Shown: in pieces, positions 28,226 to 33,002 of the stretch
How the letters are laid out: each line of letters starts with the position of its first letter
Position numbering within the stretch: the first letter of the stretch is position 1
DNA from: Leucobacter sp. cx-328
GTDB lineage: Bacteria > Actinomycetota > Actinomycetes > Actinomycetales > Microbacteriaceae
Length of the DNA stretch: 64,000 nt
Direction: 5' to 3'
Assembly (NCBI RefSeq): GCF_014530035.1
Contig: NZ_JACVMX010000003.1
Span: 124,001-188,000, forward strand
The notes under the pieces: model-generated
The model's input: only the letters and a program-made list of their open reading frames with translations
Told to the model about the DNA's origin: nothing
The model's database searches: none
Translations under genes and position numbers: made by a program

Positions 28226-28705
28226 GTGCCGAAAAACCAAAAGGCTCCGATCAATCGATCGGAGCCTTTCTTGGTGGCACTGTTTTCCTGCTATGCAAAA
28301 CAATTAGAACGCCTCACTGCATACTTTGCCTCAGAACCCTCAGATAACCCCGGTGGGGCCACTTCTACTGGCGACAATCAGCGTAAAACCCGTCAGCAGC
28401 GCTTCATCTCCAAGAAAGCCACCCAGGAGATCATCGCTGCCTACACTGCCGGAGAATCGACTGTCACTATCGCAGAACGTCTTGGCTGGCGTAGAAACAC
28501 CATCAGCGGTGTCCTGAAGCGAAACGGTGTCACCATCCGCAGCTCCACACCTGACGCTGCAACGGTTCGCCAGATGATCCAGCACTACACCAACGGCGAA
28601 TCACTGGCCGCCATCGGCATGCGATACAGTCTCTCCCCGGGCACTGTTGGCTCACACCTCAAGAAGCAGGGTGTGACGCTACGACCACGGCCTGGGTATC
28701 TGTAG
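28226..28705 (+). CDS. Double helix-turn-helix protein; separated 3' part of the recombinase gene
   Basis: Open frame with two successive HTH units of about 45 residues (AAYTAGESTVTIAERLGWRR and HYTNGESLAAIGMRYSLSPG), similar to the homeodomain-like HTH parts of resolvases. The only ATG (28226) lies in chromosomal DNA left of the element and runs through a terminator, so its first 16 codons are probably chimeric; GTG at 28274 is inside the element. Joining the element ends at TGGTGG puts this frame exactly in phase with the recombinase (ATG GTG GCA CTG), so it is best read as the recombinase C-terminus detached by integration. It may or may not be made as a free protein here. Confidence 0.6.
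   Translation: MPKNQKAPINRSEPFLVALFSCYAKQLERLTAYFASEPSDNPGGATSTGDNQRKTRQQRFISKKATQEIIAAYTAGESTVTIAERLGWRRNTISGVLKRNGVTIRSSTPDAATVRQMIQHYTNGESLAAIGMRYSLSPGTVGSHLKKQGVTLRPRPGYL
28240..28269 (-). terminator. Probable tRNA-Ala terminator, displaced by the integrative element
   Basis: A 13-bp perfect stem (AAAGGCTCCGATC with its complement, AATC loop), followed on the minus strand by TTGGTTTTT. No minus-strand gene now ends next to it. If the element is removed at TGGTGG it lies 2 nt after the CCA of tRNA-Ala, just as the tRNA-Leu copies are followed by similar hairpins. Confidence 0.65.
28272..28277. other. Left attachment core TGGTGG
   Basis: Six bases shared with the right end; the frame of the HTH gene passes through as (T)TG GTG G. 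Flanking bases differ on both sides between the two copies. Confidence 0.6.
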
Positions 28706-28738
28706 GGCAGCTAACGGCGGAGGGTGGGGATCTGCGAC

Positions 28739-28984
28739 TCAGTCGCGCAGTTCTTCTAGTTCCGCATGAATCGCTACTGCTGCTTCTTTCAGGTCCGCGA
28801 TCGTCATGCCCGACACCTTGACGTATTTGTAGACAAAGTCCGGGGCGTAGTGATTAAACTCCTTGCGTCCATTCGGCATCTGCGGCAGATGCTCAGGGAA
28901 TGAAAAGAATTCAGGGCGTCCCCGACTGACATCATCGCCCAGCGGCTTTGTGGTCGCACCAGACACCAACCCTGTCGGGGTCAC
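28739..28984 (-). CDS. Small protein of unknown function in the element
   Basis: 81 aa from GTG at 28984, with AAGGGG just upstream. No domain recognised. The sequence has an aromatic middle (KEFNHYAPDFVYKYVKVSG) and an Ala/Glu-rich helical end (LKEAAVAIHAELEEL). It starts 36 nt after the prepilin stop on the same strand, so they may share a transcript. It could also be the tail of a larger lost gene. Confidence 0.45.
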   Translation of the reverse strand: MTPTGLVSGATTKPLGDDVSRGRPEFFSFPEHLPQMPNGRKEFNHYAPDFVYKYVKVSGMTIADLKEAAVAIHAELEELRD

Positions 28985-29020
28985 CGCGCCCCTTGAGGGG
29001 TCACGGCAACCCCATCAGGC

Positions 29021-30268
29021 TTAATTTAAGAGACAGCGAACCCCGATACCGTCGCCGCGACCGCTGTAGCCATCACCGGGGTCGACGTAACTCGGATCGA
29101 AGCCCGCGCTGAAGGCGGTGCCTGGATAGGCCGGGTCGGCAGAAGCCGACCACAAGTAACCCGCGACGCCCTGGCCGTCGAAGCCGTCAACCCAGCCGCC
29201 CGAGAACGACCCTCTAAACGGGCCGGAGGGTTGCCACTTGGCTATGTTGGCTTCGCCGCCCCCTGCGTAGTTGCCAGTACCGCCAAAGGCAATGTCGAGA
29301 TCTCCAAAGTCGTTACCTGAACCTCCACCGCCACTCGGCAGCCCCCAATTCGCTGGACAGATGGAATGCTGAGCGTTGCCGGTGGTGAGGGAGGCTAGCG
29401 TTTCTCCGGCAGTTGCTGCTGCGAAGTTGTAGAGATAGCCATAGTTGCCTGGGTCGTTATCGACGGGGCCGTAGGCACGTGGGAGGTCGTATTCTGCGTT
29501 ACCGCCGGTTGTGAGCTGTGGCAACGTAAAGTTGCTCGCCACATTGCTGTCGGCTGGGGTGAGGGTAATGGAGCTACTGGTCGAGCCGAGCTTGAGGTTG
29601 GTCAGCATCCAGCACTTACCGTCAGCGAGTTTGGCTATTTCGTATGTTCTTGTTGTGCCACCGCGGTTGTCAGTGACGGTACGGACAGCGTCGTTGTTAC
29701 TCCCCGTGAATGTTGGCAAAGCTTGGCACTGAGCTGAGGTGACGTTTTGGATTGGTGAGTTGGCGGCGATTTCAGTACCGCCTCCACCTCCGCCGCCAGC
29801 AATGGTGTGACCGGAACAAGCACCGCTCTGGATGGTGCCACTCTCCGTAATATGGAAGGCCTTGCCGTCCTTGGAGGCAGTGGCGCAGAAACCTTGGCCT
29901 GAGCTGGTTTGAGAGTACTGAATAGAGTCAGGAAGGCCAGCTGGCTCTGAGCTTGGGTAGGAGCCAGTTTCTGCTTGAGTTATACCGACCTTCTTGGCAG
30001 TGGTGTTGAGGTCTGCCTTGAGGGCAGACTCCTTGGCGTTGGCGGTAATGCCGTTGTAGGCAACGAGCGTAATGGCAGCGAGGATCGCAATGACCACCAC
30101 CACGATGAGCAGTTCCACGATGGTGAAACCACGACGAGAAGAGCCCTGGCGAAGGTGAGAGAGGCCTTGCAGGGGCTGTTGGCCGAGGCTGAAGCCGTGC
30201 CCTGCTGCTCGGAGTTGCCTGGTTGGTGATTCATTGGCGTAGTGTGCCTGTGGGGATGTTCCTCTCAT
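29021..30268 (-). CDS. Type IV prepilin-like protein with Fibrobacter-type paralogous domain
   Basis: 415 aa. A class III prepilin signal: RRG|FTIVELLIVVVVI with cleavage expected after Gly47 and Glu at mature position +5, then the N-terminal pilin helix. The leader of ~46 residues is long, so the true start may be later. After a Gly-rich linker the C-terminal ~200 residues match the repeated-paralogue domain known from Fibrobacter (GKCWMLTNLKL, YGYLYNFAAA, ICPANWGLPS, GVRCLLN). No other pilus gene (peptidase, ATPase, platform) is in the window. It would need host machinery elsewhere. It is cargo of the integrative element. Confidence 0.75.
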   Translation of the reverse strand: MRGTSPQAHYANESPTRQLRAAGHGFSLGQQPLQGLSHLRQGSSRRGFTIVELLIVVVVIAILAAITLVAYNGITANAKESALKADLNTTAKKVGITQAETGSYPSSEPAGLPDSIQYSQTSSGQGFCATASKDGKAFHITESGTIQSGACSGHTIAGGGGGGGTEIAANSPIQNVTSAQCQALPTFTGSNNDAVRTVTDNRGGTTRTYEIAKLADGKCWMLTNLKLGSTSSSITLTPADSNVASNFTLPQLTTGGNAEYDLPRAYGPVDNDPGNYGYLYNFAAATAGETLASLTTGNAQHSICPANWGLPSGGGGSGNDFGDLDIAFGGTGNYAGGGEANIAKWQPSGPFRGSFSGGWVDGFDGQGVAGYLWSASADPAYPGTAFSAGFDPSYVDPGDGYSGRGDGIGVRCLLN

Positions 30269-30756
30269 GCATGGGGATCCTGCTTATGTATTTTCTGCGC
30301 CTCATTGTGCGGGATTCGAGGGAATCGGTCAAGCGAAACAGAGGTCAGTAGACGCAAGGCCCTACGCGGCAATCGAGCGTCTGCATTGGCTCCACCTCAA
30401 GACATCTCCGTAGACATTCCGCTCTCCCCGGGGTTCCACCCCTTGCGGCGGGAACCCGCCAGTGTTCCCGCAGAAGGTGGCTGTGACTCCTTGCTATGCA
30501 TCGGAAGCCCCTCCCGGGCCAACCACGAGGCCGAGAGGCGCGCCTGGACGGGCATGCTGCCGAGATAGGAGCTTGGGCATCGGCTTTCGAGCGTTCGTAG
30601 TTTGCTGTAGAGGCTTGCACAGTCGCCGCTGGGCGGCACTCGTTGGTACTGCGCTCTGAGTACATTTTGTGTTCTTCGAGGGAGCAGTGGACAGCCCTCG
30701 CCGTGCCGCCAAAGAATGCACTGGACTCTTTCGTCAAAAGAAGCGTCAATGGTGTC
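30269..30756. other. Non-coding stretch between prepilin and recombinase
   Basis: About 490 bp. The open frames here are shadows or upstream extension of the recombinase. It should hold the promoters of both divergent genes, but I could not pick a convincing -35/-10 pair or operator. Confidence 0.5.
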
Positions 30757-31896
30757 ATGACTCTGTCTCAGTACACCCCAGGCCCAGCAGTTGCTGCGCC
30801 GCCCGTGACCGACCCGTTCGCGGCGTTCACAGAATCCTTTACGCCAAAGCGTGCTGTCTCGTACCTCCGGGTCTCCACTCGCGAGCAAGCAGAACGTGGT
30901 GGCAGAGAAGAAGGCTTCTCTATCCCGGCCCAGCGAGATGCCAACAAGAAGAAGGCCACCGCCATGGGAGCCATGGTCGTCAAGGAGTTCGTGGAACGCG
31001 GCGTTTCTGGCACCTCCACCAACCGCCCAGCTCTCCAGGCCATGCTGCGCTACCTGGAAGAAGAACCCGGCAGCATTGACTACGTCATTGTGCACAAGGT
31101 GGATCGTCTGGCACGCAACCGGGCCGACGATGTCACCCTCAATGCTCGCTTTGACGAGCTCGGCATCCGGCTCGTTTCCACCAGCGAGAACATTGACCAA
31201 ACTCCGGGCGGCATGCTGCTGCACGGCATTATGTCCAGCATTGCCGAGTTCTACTCCCGCAACCTCGCCAACGAAGTACTCAAGGGCATGACCGAGAAAG
31301 TCAAAGCCGGAGGCCACGTCAGCCGTGCTCCAATTGGCTACCGCAACATCCGCACACTGGAGGGTAGCACTGAGACTCGCACCGTCGCGGTTGACGAGCA
31401 GCGAGCAGAGCATGTCCGGTGGGCCTTCTCCGCCTACGCCGAGGACGGCTGGACGATTGCCACCCTGGTTGACGAACTCAACCGGCGCGGCCTCACCACC
31501 GTGCCAACCCCGAAACTCCCGGAGAAGCCCATGGGGATCCGGCAGGTGCACCATATGCTCACCAATCCGTTCTACACCGGCGTAGTGCCGTTTAAGGGGG
31601 CAACGTACCCCGGCAGCCACGAGCCCCTGGTGGACAGCGAGACCTTTGCCAAAGTGCAGACCATCTTGGGGTCACGCCTGACCGGGGAGCGTTCCCGCAA
31701 ACACGACCACTACCTGAAATCCAGTGTCGTCTGCGGCGGTTGCGGGTCGCGCCTCATTGTGCAACACAGCCGTTCTGGTGGTAACGGTGAGGTGTATGAG
31801 TACTACTCCTGTGGCGGACGGCACAACAAACGCACCAACTGCAACTTCCGGTCAATCCAGATCCCGCACCTGGAAGACCTCATTGCGGATCTGTAA
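30757..31896 (+). CDS. Large serine recombinase, truncated by an in-frame stop
   Basis: 379 aa from ATG at 30757 to TAA at 31894. The resolvase domain begins KRAVSYLRVSTREQ with nucleophile Ser40, followed by the recombinase domain (about 185-300) and a zinc ribbon with VVCGGCGSR and YYSCGGRHNKRTNC. The stop falls right after the ribbon (HLEDLIADL*), where related proteins enter the coiled coil; the frame continues for another ~240 codons, so this looks like a TAC-to-TAA type change. The long coiled-coil part is needed for integrase control in this family, so the copy is probably inactive. Start choice: a TTG extension to 30643 exists but looks non-coding. Confidence 0.82.
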   Translation: MTLSQYTPGPAVAAPPVTDPFAAFTESFTPKRAVSYLRVSTREQAERGGREEGFSIPAQRDANKKKATAMGAMVVKEFVERGVSGTSTNRPALQAMLRYLEEEPGSIDYVIVHKVDRLARNRADDVTLNARFDELGIRLVSTSENIDQTPGGMLLHGIMSSIAEFYSRNLANEVLKGMTEKVKAGGHVSRAPIGYRNIRTLEGSTETRTVAVDEQRAEHVRWAFSAYAEDGWTIATLVDELNRRGLTTVPTPKLPEKPMGIRQVHHMLTNPFYTGVVPFKGATYPGSHEPLVDSETFAKVQTILGSRLTGERSRKHDHYLKSSVVCGGCGSRLIVQHSRSGGNGEVYEYYSCGGRHNKRTNCNFRSIQIPHLEDLIADL

Positions 31897-32488
31897 CGGC
31901 GCATCTCGCTCGACCCGCTCCTCCGGCTCCAGATGGAAGCCTTGTTGCGAGCATCCCTCAGGGAGATGCGACGCTCCGAGCACGACGAACGGAAACAGCT
32001 GGAAAAGACGAAGCTGCAACTGGAGCGCAAACAGCAGAAGCTGCTTGAGGCACATTACAACGACGCCATCCCGGTAGACCTGCTCAGCCGCGAACAGAAG
32101 AAGCTCGACACCGAACTGACCAAGGTCAAGCGGGAACTGGCAGGCCACCAGGCCAGTGCTGACAAGGGTGAGCAGATACTCTCCCTGGCGCTTGACCTCT
32201 GCGAAGACATGTTCCAGAAGTACCGCCGGGCACCGGAGCACATCCGGCGGCTCCTCAACCAGCTGCTCTTTGAGGGAATCCGGGTCGTCTTTGACGGAGA
32301 AGGCGGCGACTGGGCGGTCGAGGCCGACTACACGCCGGAGTTTATGTTCCTGACTTCTGGCAGCATCCGGACTGCCGCACGTGAGTACGTCGAGAAGACA
32401 AACAAGCCCACCCAGAAGGGTGAGCTTGCGAGTGATACCGGTGACGAGGTGGTTATTAACCTGGTCAAAGGTTCTAATAAGAGCTTGA

Positions 32489-32494
32489 TGGTGG
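32489..32494. other. Right attachment core TGGTGG
   Basis: Complement of the last six tRNA-Ala bases (CCACCA). The recombinase frame crosses as ATG GTG G, the same phase as at the left end. Confidence 0.6.
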
Positions 32495-32564
32495 ATCTAA
32501 GGGGATTCGAACCCCTGACCCCCTGCATGCCATGCAGGTGCGCTACCAACTGCGCCATAGACCC
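32489..32564 (-). tRNA. tRNA-Ala (anticodon GGC)
   Basis: 76 nt including encoded CCA. The acceptor stem GGGTCTA/TAGATCC has the G3:U70 pair that marks alanine tRNAs. The anticodon stem CCTGC/GCAGG encloses ATGGCAT, giving GGC. The T-loop is GGTTCGAATCC. It is the target of the integrative element at its 3' end and stays intact. It lies 37 nt past the rsfS stop. Confidence 0.93.
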
Positions 32565-32600
32565 AAGTGAAGTCGGACGAATACTCGCCCGACGACTCTC

Positions 32601-33002
32601 TTACTCTACCTCGAGACGAGCCTCGTGAGCCAATCGCGCACGCTCGAGCGTGTCGTTGACCTCAATGCTCGGGCAATCTCCCCAGAGGCGCTCGAGCTGG
32701 TAAAACTCGCGGTCCTCGTGATGGAACACGTGAACGAGCAAATCGCCAAAGTCAAGCAGAACCCAACGTCCACCCGAGCGGCCCTCACGGCGAACCGTGC
32801 GAATGCCAGACCTATTCAGTTCGTCCTCGATGTTGTCAGAGATAGCCTGAACGTTGCGCTCGACCGAGCCACTCACAATCAGGAACGCGTCAGCGTAACC
32901 GAACTGTTCGGCTACGTTCAAGGCAACCTGATCGGTTGCGCCCTTCGCGTCGGCGGCGAGGACCGCGGTCTCAATGATGGACTCAAGCGGCTGCGTCTCC
33001 AC
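32601..33002 (-). CDS. rsfS: Ribosome silencing factor RsfS
   Basis: 133 aa, single DUF143/RsfS domain: AADAKGATDQVALNV, DAFLIVSGSVERNVQAISDNIE, and the end motif GRWVLLDFGDLLVHVFHHEDREFYQLERLWGD. It binds ribosomal protein L14 and blocks subunit joining when nutrients run low. It sits downstream of nadD as usual in actinobacteria, with one unknown gene between them (36 nt gap). Confidence 0.95.
   Translation of the reverse strand: METQPLESIIETAVLAADAKGATDQVALNVAEQFGYADAFLIVSGSVERNVQAISDNIEDELNRSGIRTVRREGRSGGRWVLLDFGDLLVHVFHHEDREFYQLERLWGDCPSIEVNDTLERARLAHEARLEVE

Follow-up and report, generated by a model that had tools for sequence, protein, structure and literature searches.

Within the 64,000-nucleotide stretch of Leucobacter sp. 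cx-328 DNA that was analysed here (the window), an element of 4217 bp occupies positions 28278-32494, between a tRNA-Ala gene and the terminator of that gene. The target gene, tRNA-Ala(GGC), lies on the minus strand (32489..32564) and is intact after integration; the recombinase frame of the element reads this tRNA antisense. The intrinsic terminator of the tRNA-Ala gene is a 14-pair hairpin (28239..28270, minus strand), which in G594, a genome of the same genus that has the empty site, is located directly 3' of the tRNA, and which in the window now lies 4.2 kb from the tRNA-Ala gene, with the element in between. Besides a serine recombinase gene and a double helix-turn-helix (HTH) frame, the element carries two cargo frames on the minus strand. 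The first (29021..30268) encodes a type IV pilin-like protein with an N-terminal methylation motif and a weak Fib_succ_major-like region that falls under the Pfam cut-off, and the second (28739..28984) is an ORF of 81 aa with no Pfam match.

Element ends and empty site

A first-pass annotation, made from the sequence before this analysis, had placed the element ends at a shared TGGTGG, and this core is indeed present at both ends, at 28272..28277 (attL, plus strand) and 32489..32494 (attR, plus strand). The longer string TTGGTGG by itself is no evidence of element ends, because the window contains 13 copies where 5.9 are expected. Both ends were defined by the empty site in G594, in which the left flank of the window (to 28277) and the right flank (from 32489) are contiguous, with no element between them. 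The left-flank alignment, at 83% identity over 1290 aligned positions, stops at 28277, and the right-flank alignment, at 94% over 910 positions, begins at 32489; a 512-base query from the right flank matched G594 at 96% identity. These breaks in the alignment indicated that the predicted element ends are real.

A second, weaker empty site was found for another element of the same genome, which is associated with tRNA-Gln and the core GCTGG and for which the left-flank match covers only 53 nt. At least two elements of the recombinase-HTH family are present in this genome. With its insertion at the 3' end of a tRNA gene that remains whole, and with an empty site in a relative, the window element has the marks of tRNA targeting, and it belongs, as a small and decayed copy, to a widespread family of mobile elements that insert in tRNA genes.

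Recombinase gene and double-HTH frame

The open part of the recombinase gene (30757..31896, plus strand) comprises 379 codons and a TAA, and encodes the Resolvase (E 2.7e-33), Recombinase (E 4.3e-14) and Zn-ribbon (E 7.2e-10) domains of a large serine recombinase. Tyrosine-type integration was considered and rejected, as the Pfam matches include no domain of that type (no Phage_integr_3) and are those of a serine recombinase. The recombinase frame is not intact. An in-frame TAA at 31894-31896, 379 codons downstream of the ATG at 30757, separates the open part from a continuation of the frame to the core (31897..32488, plus strand), which has matches in the relatives L034, L035, L036 and L037. 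Four relatives from genome contigs have no stop at the position of this TAA and their frame continues, and intact recombinase relatives exist. Past the core, the frame of the window passes through the antisense tRNA-Ala (32489-32564) to 32628 and reads DLRGFEPLTPC, as the first-pass annotation had described. The same annotation had proposed that recombinase and HTH become one gene of ~721 codons. This does not apply to the window copy, since the TAA interrupts the recombinase frame; the copy is therefore decayed and unable to make a protein of that length, and the fusion is valid as a layout of the family, not as an expressible protein here.

The double-HTH frame (28274..28705, plus strand) is equally placed in relatives and is probably the segment of the recombinase gene for the C-terminus, severed from the rest by integration. 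It contains a first HTH at 28427..28525 (plus strand; Pfam HTH_38, E 5e-7) and a second at 28571..28696 (plus strand; Pfam HTH_58, E 1e-6). The right frame, ATG GTG G, and the left frame, TTG GTG GCA, are identical in phase, as had been noted. It had also been claimed that the HTH frame has no good start of its own, and after the core GTG (28274) no ATG, GTG or TTG was found until the ATG at 28574, which in the window lies beyond the first HTH.

Purifying selection acts on the HTH frame, as dN/dS is 0.16-0.35 across 9 pairs, including 0.16-0.29 in the four pairs whose dS is below 1. Comparison of the window HTH with two G051 copies gave dN/dS of 0.28 and 0.22, at near-saturated dS.

Related recombinases and HTH frames

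The first-pass annotation had anticipated integrated relatives that end in an antisense-tRNA peptide, and 70 of 87 distinct related recombinases were found to open into an antisense tRNA. In another 10, the window included, the tRNA is in place and the frame stops short of it; two have an antisense-tRNA-like end without a called tRNA, four have no antisense-tRNA end, and one is cut short. Across this census of 87, the tRNAs at the recombinase ends represent 12 isotypes.

The double-HTH frames are found on the strand of the recombinase but at the other end of the element. In 41 genomes, a search with an HTH profile that itself contained the window and G073 sequences yielded, with weaker matches excluded, 20 matches at E<=1e-8 on contigs that also bear a recombinase match. 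All but one of these 20 were on the same strand as every recombinase on the contig, and the exception was contig G073:C24, which has one recombinase per strand. Twenty-five HTH-recombinase pairs were selected for same strand, HTH upstream and a distance of at most 100 kb, and their orientation is therefore no test.

Weaker HTH matches on recombinase contigs occur on either strand. Matches on the opposite strand are present on contig 6 of G325 (E 0.003), in G658 (E 1.1e-4), in G725 (E 2.7e-4, 125 kb away) and in G704 (E 1.3e-6), where the match lies beside another on the expected strand.

Relatives with a recombinase that ends in the double HTH had likewise been predicted, and this was borne out in part. 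In-frame joints between a recombinase tail and an HTH are present in G489, G495, G371a, G070 and contig 11 of G051, but all five are partial or decayed (G051 contig 11 contains stops), and an intact full-length fused gene was not found, as none of the 87 related recombinases continues in frame into an HTH. In G433 the recombinase and HTH are adjacent, ~85 bp apart and out of frame.

Searches of plasmids, phages and IMG/VR revealed no free copy in the family. HTH or HTH-plus-tail queries of these three collections returned no fused recombinase-HTH gene, the recombinase query had no plasmid match at E<=1e-60, and a single-sequence recombinase query had no match in IMG/VR. With a recombinase profile, 42 loci were recovered from IMG/VR; all 42 were viewed at their C-termini, two being without a readable frame, and in the five closest loci (L208-L212) no HTH relatives were matched. 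Distant recombinases, at roughly 27-32% identity, were found in 441 plasmid records and 531 phage records. The Microbacterium plasmids H70 and H71 proved to be false leads.

Phase and arms of attP

Recombinase and HTH could be anchored at a core in 20 of the 25 pairs (the five without an anchor are G000C5, G404, G467, G567 and G433a), and in 19 of the 20 the two frames are in the same phase, G574 being out of phase. An attP inside the integrase frame, with in-phase parts at both ends, is thus found in 19 anchored pairs and in the window. Anchoring was done by hand, automatic scoring of cores being unreliable, and cores of at least 7 nt were therefore counted separately. Only these eight are less biased, because the other 12 anchors are hand-picked cores of only 4-6 nt. 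Seven of the eight are in phase, with a chance of 0.0026 if they are independent, and two of them share one recombinase; in G489 and G371a the core owes its length to a recombinase tail that is already joined there.

Most elements tested have inverted-repeat arms that flank the core, one in the 3' end of the recombinase and the other in the 5' end of the HTH. In 18 anchored pairs and the window (G282a and G574 were omitted), the summed inverted-repeat run was 140, compared to a mean of 76.4 and a maximum of 90 in 500 shuffles of the left arm. The arms reached p<=0.02 individually in 13 of these 19 elements, while p was above 0.1 in five (G329, G371a, G371b, G495 and the window). For the attP of the window, no exact inverted-repeat run was seen at the permitted spacing (p 0.99). 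As judged from sequence, the inverted-repeat arms tend to be the two halves of a predicted attP.

The arm on the recombinase side also carries a T-loop-like motif. A match to GGTTCGAA at 6/8 or better was present in 56 of 76 distinct arms, compared to a mean of 9.3 and a maximum of 19 in 300 shuffles, and in 52 of the 56 the gap between core and motif is 11-13 nt. The window has GGTTCTAA at 32470..32477 (plus strand), a 7/8 match with a gap of 11 (row L043 of the motif scan) that places the motif 11 nt before the tRNA end. At the level of nucleotide similarity, the recombinase-side arm is a mimic of the T-loop motif, with a core gap equal to that in the tRNA.

Interpretation and alternative explanations

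The window most likely holds a decayed integrative element in which the serine recombinase gene contains attP between its integrase and double-HTH parts, so that integration sheds the HTH. The first-pass proposal that attP lies in one recombinase-HTH frame, and that the HTH is replaced by an antisense-tRNA tail, stands for the layout of the family but not for the window copy with its TAA. In the proposed mechanism, the circle would bear one full-length gene, encoding recombinase and double HTH, whose product would perform integration. Integration would then remove the HTH and leave a serine integrase of canonical form whose tail is arbitrary, being read from the antisense tRNA, and loss of the HTH may alter site binding or activity so that one direction is favoured. 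The recombinase may recognise its many tRNA targets by their T-loop box, and where neighbouring elements are joined, chimaeric recombinase-HTH frames could result. With slightly more doubt than belief, we suggest that these enzymes are a broad group of bacterial self-splitting serine integrases, in which T-loop motifs copied in attP would guide targeting, the full-length protein would integrate, shedding of the HTH would lock direction, and joints with neighbours would create chimaeric genes of full length that re-activate and re-specify the recombinase.

The split might instead be without consequence, the HTH being accessory and the truncated recombinase acting equally well in either direction, aided by a distinct directionality factor. 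In the relative L034, residues 8-499 of 580 are covered by the phrog_95 integrase profile, and the integrated part retains this region; what is shed therefore resembles an extension of a canonical serine integrase. Serine integrases are not known to carry an HTH tail. However, the purifying selection on the HTH indicates that the complete enzyme matters, or at the least the HTH product, and we regard a split without consequence as rather unlikely. Equally doubtful is the possibility that the truncated recombinase is inactive in excision and the element locked in place unless another copy, or a joint of recombinase and HTH, provides the full-length enzyme. This is the logic described for archaeal suicidal integrases in the portions of PMC8371274 drawn on here, and it is consistent with joined junctions, none of them intact, and with the additional family element in the genome of the window. 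In the archaeal case, however, the cut parts the enzyme, which has a C-terminal catalytic domain, whereas here the catalytic part stays in the N-terminal half.

It is less probable still that the HTH is a separate gene, encoding a repressor or directionality factor, that is transcribed from a host or internal source and that, in an integrated element, has its translation start at the core GTG or just after it. Many elements keep a regulator beside attL. Most cores carry an in-phase GTG, which in the window is preceded by GGAG, and in 17 of 20 elements the stretch from core to HTH contains a start codon of one kind or another (ATG in 5). Yet different families have no HTH start in common, and in only two of the 20 elements is a start in this stretch accompanied by a Shine-Dalgarno-like site; before the core GTG, neither GGAG nor another Shine-Dalgarno-like site was seen in any of 12 others examined, all taken from the 20 anchored pairs. 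The DNA upstream is host sequence that differs at every site, in the window a terminator hairpin lies upstream of the HTH frame and the flanking gene points away, and nothing would keep a separate gene in phase with the recombinase. That an unrelated HTH ORF lies near a short repeat by chance is hardly credible, for although TTGGTGG is common in the window, the empty site and the conservation of position, phase and attP arms across many genomes argue against it.

Comparison with known systems

The Resolvase, Recombinase and Zn-ribbon domains of the window recombinase are common to canonical large serine integrases (PHROG 95; TP901-1, A118), which are not known to have a double-HTH tail past the core and in which attP lies outside the gene. 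If the shed HTH of the window family sets direction, then the structure of the gene itself would encode direction, which would not depend on a directionality factor alone. The T-loop motif offers a testable rule for the choice of tRNA sites by serine integrases, which would be useful in target prediction. Databases hold recombinases with GFEP-type antisense-tRNA peptide ends. Gene splitting would explain such ends, and enzymes mined from integrated copies should be viewed with caution, as they may be without their true C-terminus.

The integrase of the Myxococcus phage Mx8 is of the tyrosine type. The Islander paper names Mx8 in a tyrosine-integrase context. According to the excerpted text of PMC6070905, attP of Mx8 lies within int, which on integration acquires a new 3' end and an altered specificity. 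Mx8 is thus, like the window family, a bacterial case with attP inside the integrase coding sequence, whereas neither a serine integrase nor loss of an HTH domain is described for it in that excerpted text (PMC6070905). In archaeal suicidal (SSV-type) integrases, e.g. those of SSV1, pTN3 and pT26-2, attP lies in the integrase gene and integration splits this gene into N- and C-terminal parts, as in the window family (PMC8371274, in part). The archaeal enzymes are tyrosine recombinases with the catalytic domain in the part that is cut off, whereas those of the window family are bacterial serine recombinases in which the catalytic and core DNA-binding regions are retained and an extra double HTH is lost. 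Serine recombinases in tRNA genes, called rare in 2011, include those of Mycobacterium AICEs (tRNA-Leu) and the Ralstonia phage phiRSM1 (tRNA-Ser), and the sections of that source used here say nothing of a split gene (PMC3218068). These share with the window family a serine recombinase and a tRNA target, but in the window family tRNAs of 12 isotypes are found at the recombinase ends. Many actinobacterial serine recombinases appear to combine tRNA targeting with the splitting of their own gene.

Boundaries of the element and its split reading frame

The window element is bordered on the right by tRNA-Ala(GGC) (32489-32564, minus strand) and on the left by the terminator of the tRNA-Ala(GGC) gene (28239-28270, minus strand). 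The first-pass annotation had described TGGTGG as common to both ends, and this core was present at 28272-28277 (left) and 32489-32494 (right). TTGGTGG occurred 13 times in the window versus 5.9 expected, and the repeat by itself is no proof of element ends. Genome G594 belongs to the same genus and has a right flank with 96% identity over 512 bases; in it, the window's left flank (to 28277; 83% over 1290 aligned positions) and right flank (from 32489) were contiguous. By this alignment the G594 site is an empty target site (attB), and because it defines both ends, the element was sized at 4217 bp. The only sizeable cargo was a type IV pilin-like protein (29021-30268, minus strand) with a weak Fib_succ_major-like region.

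The recombinase frame, with Resolvase, Recombinase and Zn-ribbon domains, began at ATG 30757 and met a TAA (31894-31896) after 379 codons. Beyond the TAA it continued, homologous to relatives, up to the core, and crossed the antisense tRNA-Ala to 32628, as previously claimed. Four relatives found by a genome_contigs scan were all open at the position of the TAA and all had an antisense tRNA at the frame end. It had been proposed that recombinase and double helix-turn-helix (HTH) frame form one ~721-codon gene in the circle, split by integration at its own attachment site; the overlooked TAA cuts that gene in the window copy, which is decayed. The HTH frame (28226-28705; Pfam HTH_38 and HTH_58) has its first GTG in host DNA, ahead of the terminator. 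Its reported lack of a good start of its own was confirmed, as no ATG, GTG or TTG occurred from the core GTG (28274) until ATG 28574, which falls beyond the first HTH.

tRNA targets of related recombinases

At E<=1e-60, 40 of 396 genomes searched within the order carried a related recombinase, as did 28 of 394 within the class at E<=1e-90. Taken from these searches and further fetched copies, 87 distinct recombinases were sorted by the end of their frame, and 70 opened into antisense tRNA. In ten, the window included, the tRNA was in place but the frame ended before it; two had an antisense-tRNA-like end with no tRNA called, four were without one and one was too short. Isotypes in the first two classes were Ala (34), Val (10), Leu (10), Arg (9), His (4), Ile (3), Lys (3), Pro (2), Ser (2) and Gln, Glu and Met (1 each).

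The window's own genome, G000, held further loci of the family (G000:C7:358968-383526, G000:C5:596578-616736 and G000:C8:167966; L111-L114, L042, L165). One element lay at tRNA-Gln and one at tRNA-His, the latter with a recombinase frame ending before the tRNA. A remnant HTH with a stop lay about 12 kb from a tRNA-Pro, with no accompanying recombinase detectable.

Position, phase and selection of the HTH frame

A profile (A1) made from five left-end HTH frames, the window's among them, matched 38 of 41 genomes (E<=0.01), which had been picked mostly for having a related recombinase. Among 20 matches at E<=1e-8 on a contig shared with a recombinase, 19 had the strand of every recombinase on that contig; the exception was G073:C24, where both strands carry recombinases. 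In the class-level search, seven contigs (G940, G816, G925, G937, G744, G704, G621) likewise had an HTH upstream and in the same orientation, leaving out weaker matches, which occur on either strand.

The claim that HTH and recombinase share a phase was borne out in relatives. From 25 chosen pairs the core could be anchored in 20, 12 of them by only 4-6 nt, and 19 of the 20 were in phase. The recombinase frame was stop-free from matched start to core in 19 of the 20 (exception G312). With cores of at least 7 nt, 7 of 8 pairs were in phase (chance 0.0026 if independent; G282a and G282b have one recombinase in common), the cores of G489 and G371a being long because a recombinase tail is already joined there. 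In the G000 tRNA-Gln element, the HTH lay 23.5 kb from the recombinase; its anchor, GCTGG, was backed by a contiguous site in G594 with a left-flank match of just 53 nt at 92%. The out-of-phase exception, G574, had an extra ~85 bp between two cores, and in G433 this stretch separated the recombinase from the HTH. It includes a terminator-like hairpin and lies between two TGGGGTG cores beside recombinase and HTH (L132 1960-2070 in G433; L127/L128 in G574), as if it were a captured tRNA 3' flank.

Homologous left-end frames gave dN/dS of 0.16-0.35 (nine pairs; 0.16-0.29 for the four pairs whose dS was below 1), and the window's frame gave about 0.28 and 0.22 against the two G051 copies at near-saturated dS. 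By these ratios the HTH frame is coding sequence in use. An ATG, GTG or TTG lay between core and HTH in 17 of 20 elements and an ATG in 5, with an ATG position common to G391 and G312 only and early ATGs in G333 and G051C20. Only 2 of the 20 combined a start in this interval with a Shine-Dalgarno-like site, and no such site preceded the core GTG in the 12 elements tested; the GGAG before the window's core GTG derives from the terminator. A joined reading frame best explains this pattern of start codons and selection, but some families may translate the HTH separately.

attP arms and the T-loop motif

In 19 elements (18 anchored pairs and the window), inverted repeats at similar distances on either side of the core were sought between the 3' end of the recombinase and the 5' end of the HTH. 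The best exact runs summed to 140; shuffling the left arms 500 times gave a mean of 76.4 and at most 90. Single elements gave p<=0.02 in 13 of 19, for example ATTGCAGTAAG (G541), GTTCGAATAA (G301) and CGGGGCAAGGTT (G489), 0.066 in G051C20, and above 0.1 in five (G329, G371a, G371b, G495 and the window). The window has an 8-bp GTTCTAAT copy in both arms, at unequal distance and outside the distance limit of the test. The two arms look like halves of one attP.

In the attB half of the window, TTCGAACC begins 11 nt past the core and is the T-loop motif GGTTCGAA in antisense. Of 76 recombinase-side arms, 56 matched GGTTCGAA at six or more of its eight positions, against a mean of 9.3 and a maximum of 19 in 300 shuffles, and 52 of these had a gap to the tRNA end of 11-13 nt; the window arm has GGTTCTAA (32470-32477, gap 11). 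Arms of some subfamilies carried other motifs, such as TGTTCCCG. The recombinase may thus read the T-loop box, which, if true, would open many tRNA genes to one recombinase family.

Joined junctions and tail variants

Recombinase and HTH sequences were found joined in several relatives. In G489, the tail of another recombinase (...SYVEV) directly joins ARQCSNLAP...HTH. In G371a and G495, the HTH part follows ...GEGLYSDAVV, the peptide that ends the G371 recombinase before the tRNA. On G070 contig 5, ...SSDVECSRKELLV joins GLSSSHANEL...HTH, where an integrated relative instead reads SSDVACSRKTLWV-GPAGIEPTT, and on G051 contig 11 a decayed recombinase is followed by the HTH in frame, with stops present. 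None of these junctions held a complete intact fused gene, and they appear to be joints formed between adjacent elements.

Two other arrangements were observed. On G073:C24, at about 118.1 kb (L039 5130-5200), a left-end HTH frame joins a sense-oriented sequence resembling a 3' fragment of tRNA-Pro, at a palindrome (CAGCCCGGGCTG); the standard orientation does not account for it. On G952:C6, two left-end HTH frames (L280 and L304) lie 4.4 kb apart, each opening via a core-like VEV motif, and the class-level search (E<=1e-90) gave no recombinase match on that contig.

Among IMG/VR recombinases, L221, L215 and L224 shared a conserved short tail, whereas L225 was alike up to GGCGGGA and then antisense-tRNA-like; L223, L239 and L228 contrasted with L227 in the same way. 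No tRNA was called for L225 or L227, where the fetched DNA extends no further than the stop, and no HTH was noticed among these recombinases. The C-terminal swap looks the same as in the window's family, and the two kinds of tail appear to mark the free and the integrated state of related serine recombinases.

Proposed mechanism and comparison with known integrases

Comparative analysis establishes the split frame, its phase, the tRNA target, selection on the HTH and, in most tested elements, paired attP arms. The circle would carry a full-length enzyme and the chromosome a truncated one, with a consequence for direction. The truncated recombinase may still be active, because the part covered by the phrog_95 integrase profile (residues 8-499 of 580 in relative L034) is retained. 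The shed HTH might favour integration, might repress expression, or might do neither.

In the literature searched (titles and abstract starts, from a library with few subscription papers), no serine integrase split at attP was described; related work includes PMC12884075, PMC10654092 and PMC9203015. In published accounts, tRNA genes are not known as serine integrase targets (PMC4383910), serine-type cases in tRNA are rare (PMC3218068), and suicidal integrases are exclusive to archaea (PMC8371274). The integrases of Mx8, also treated in PMC6070905, and SSV reach across attP (PMC4383910).
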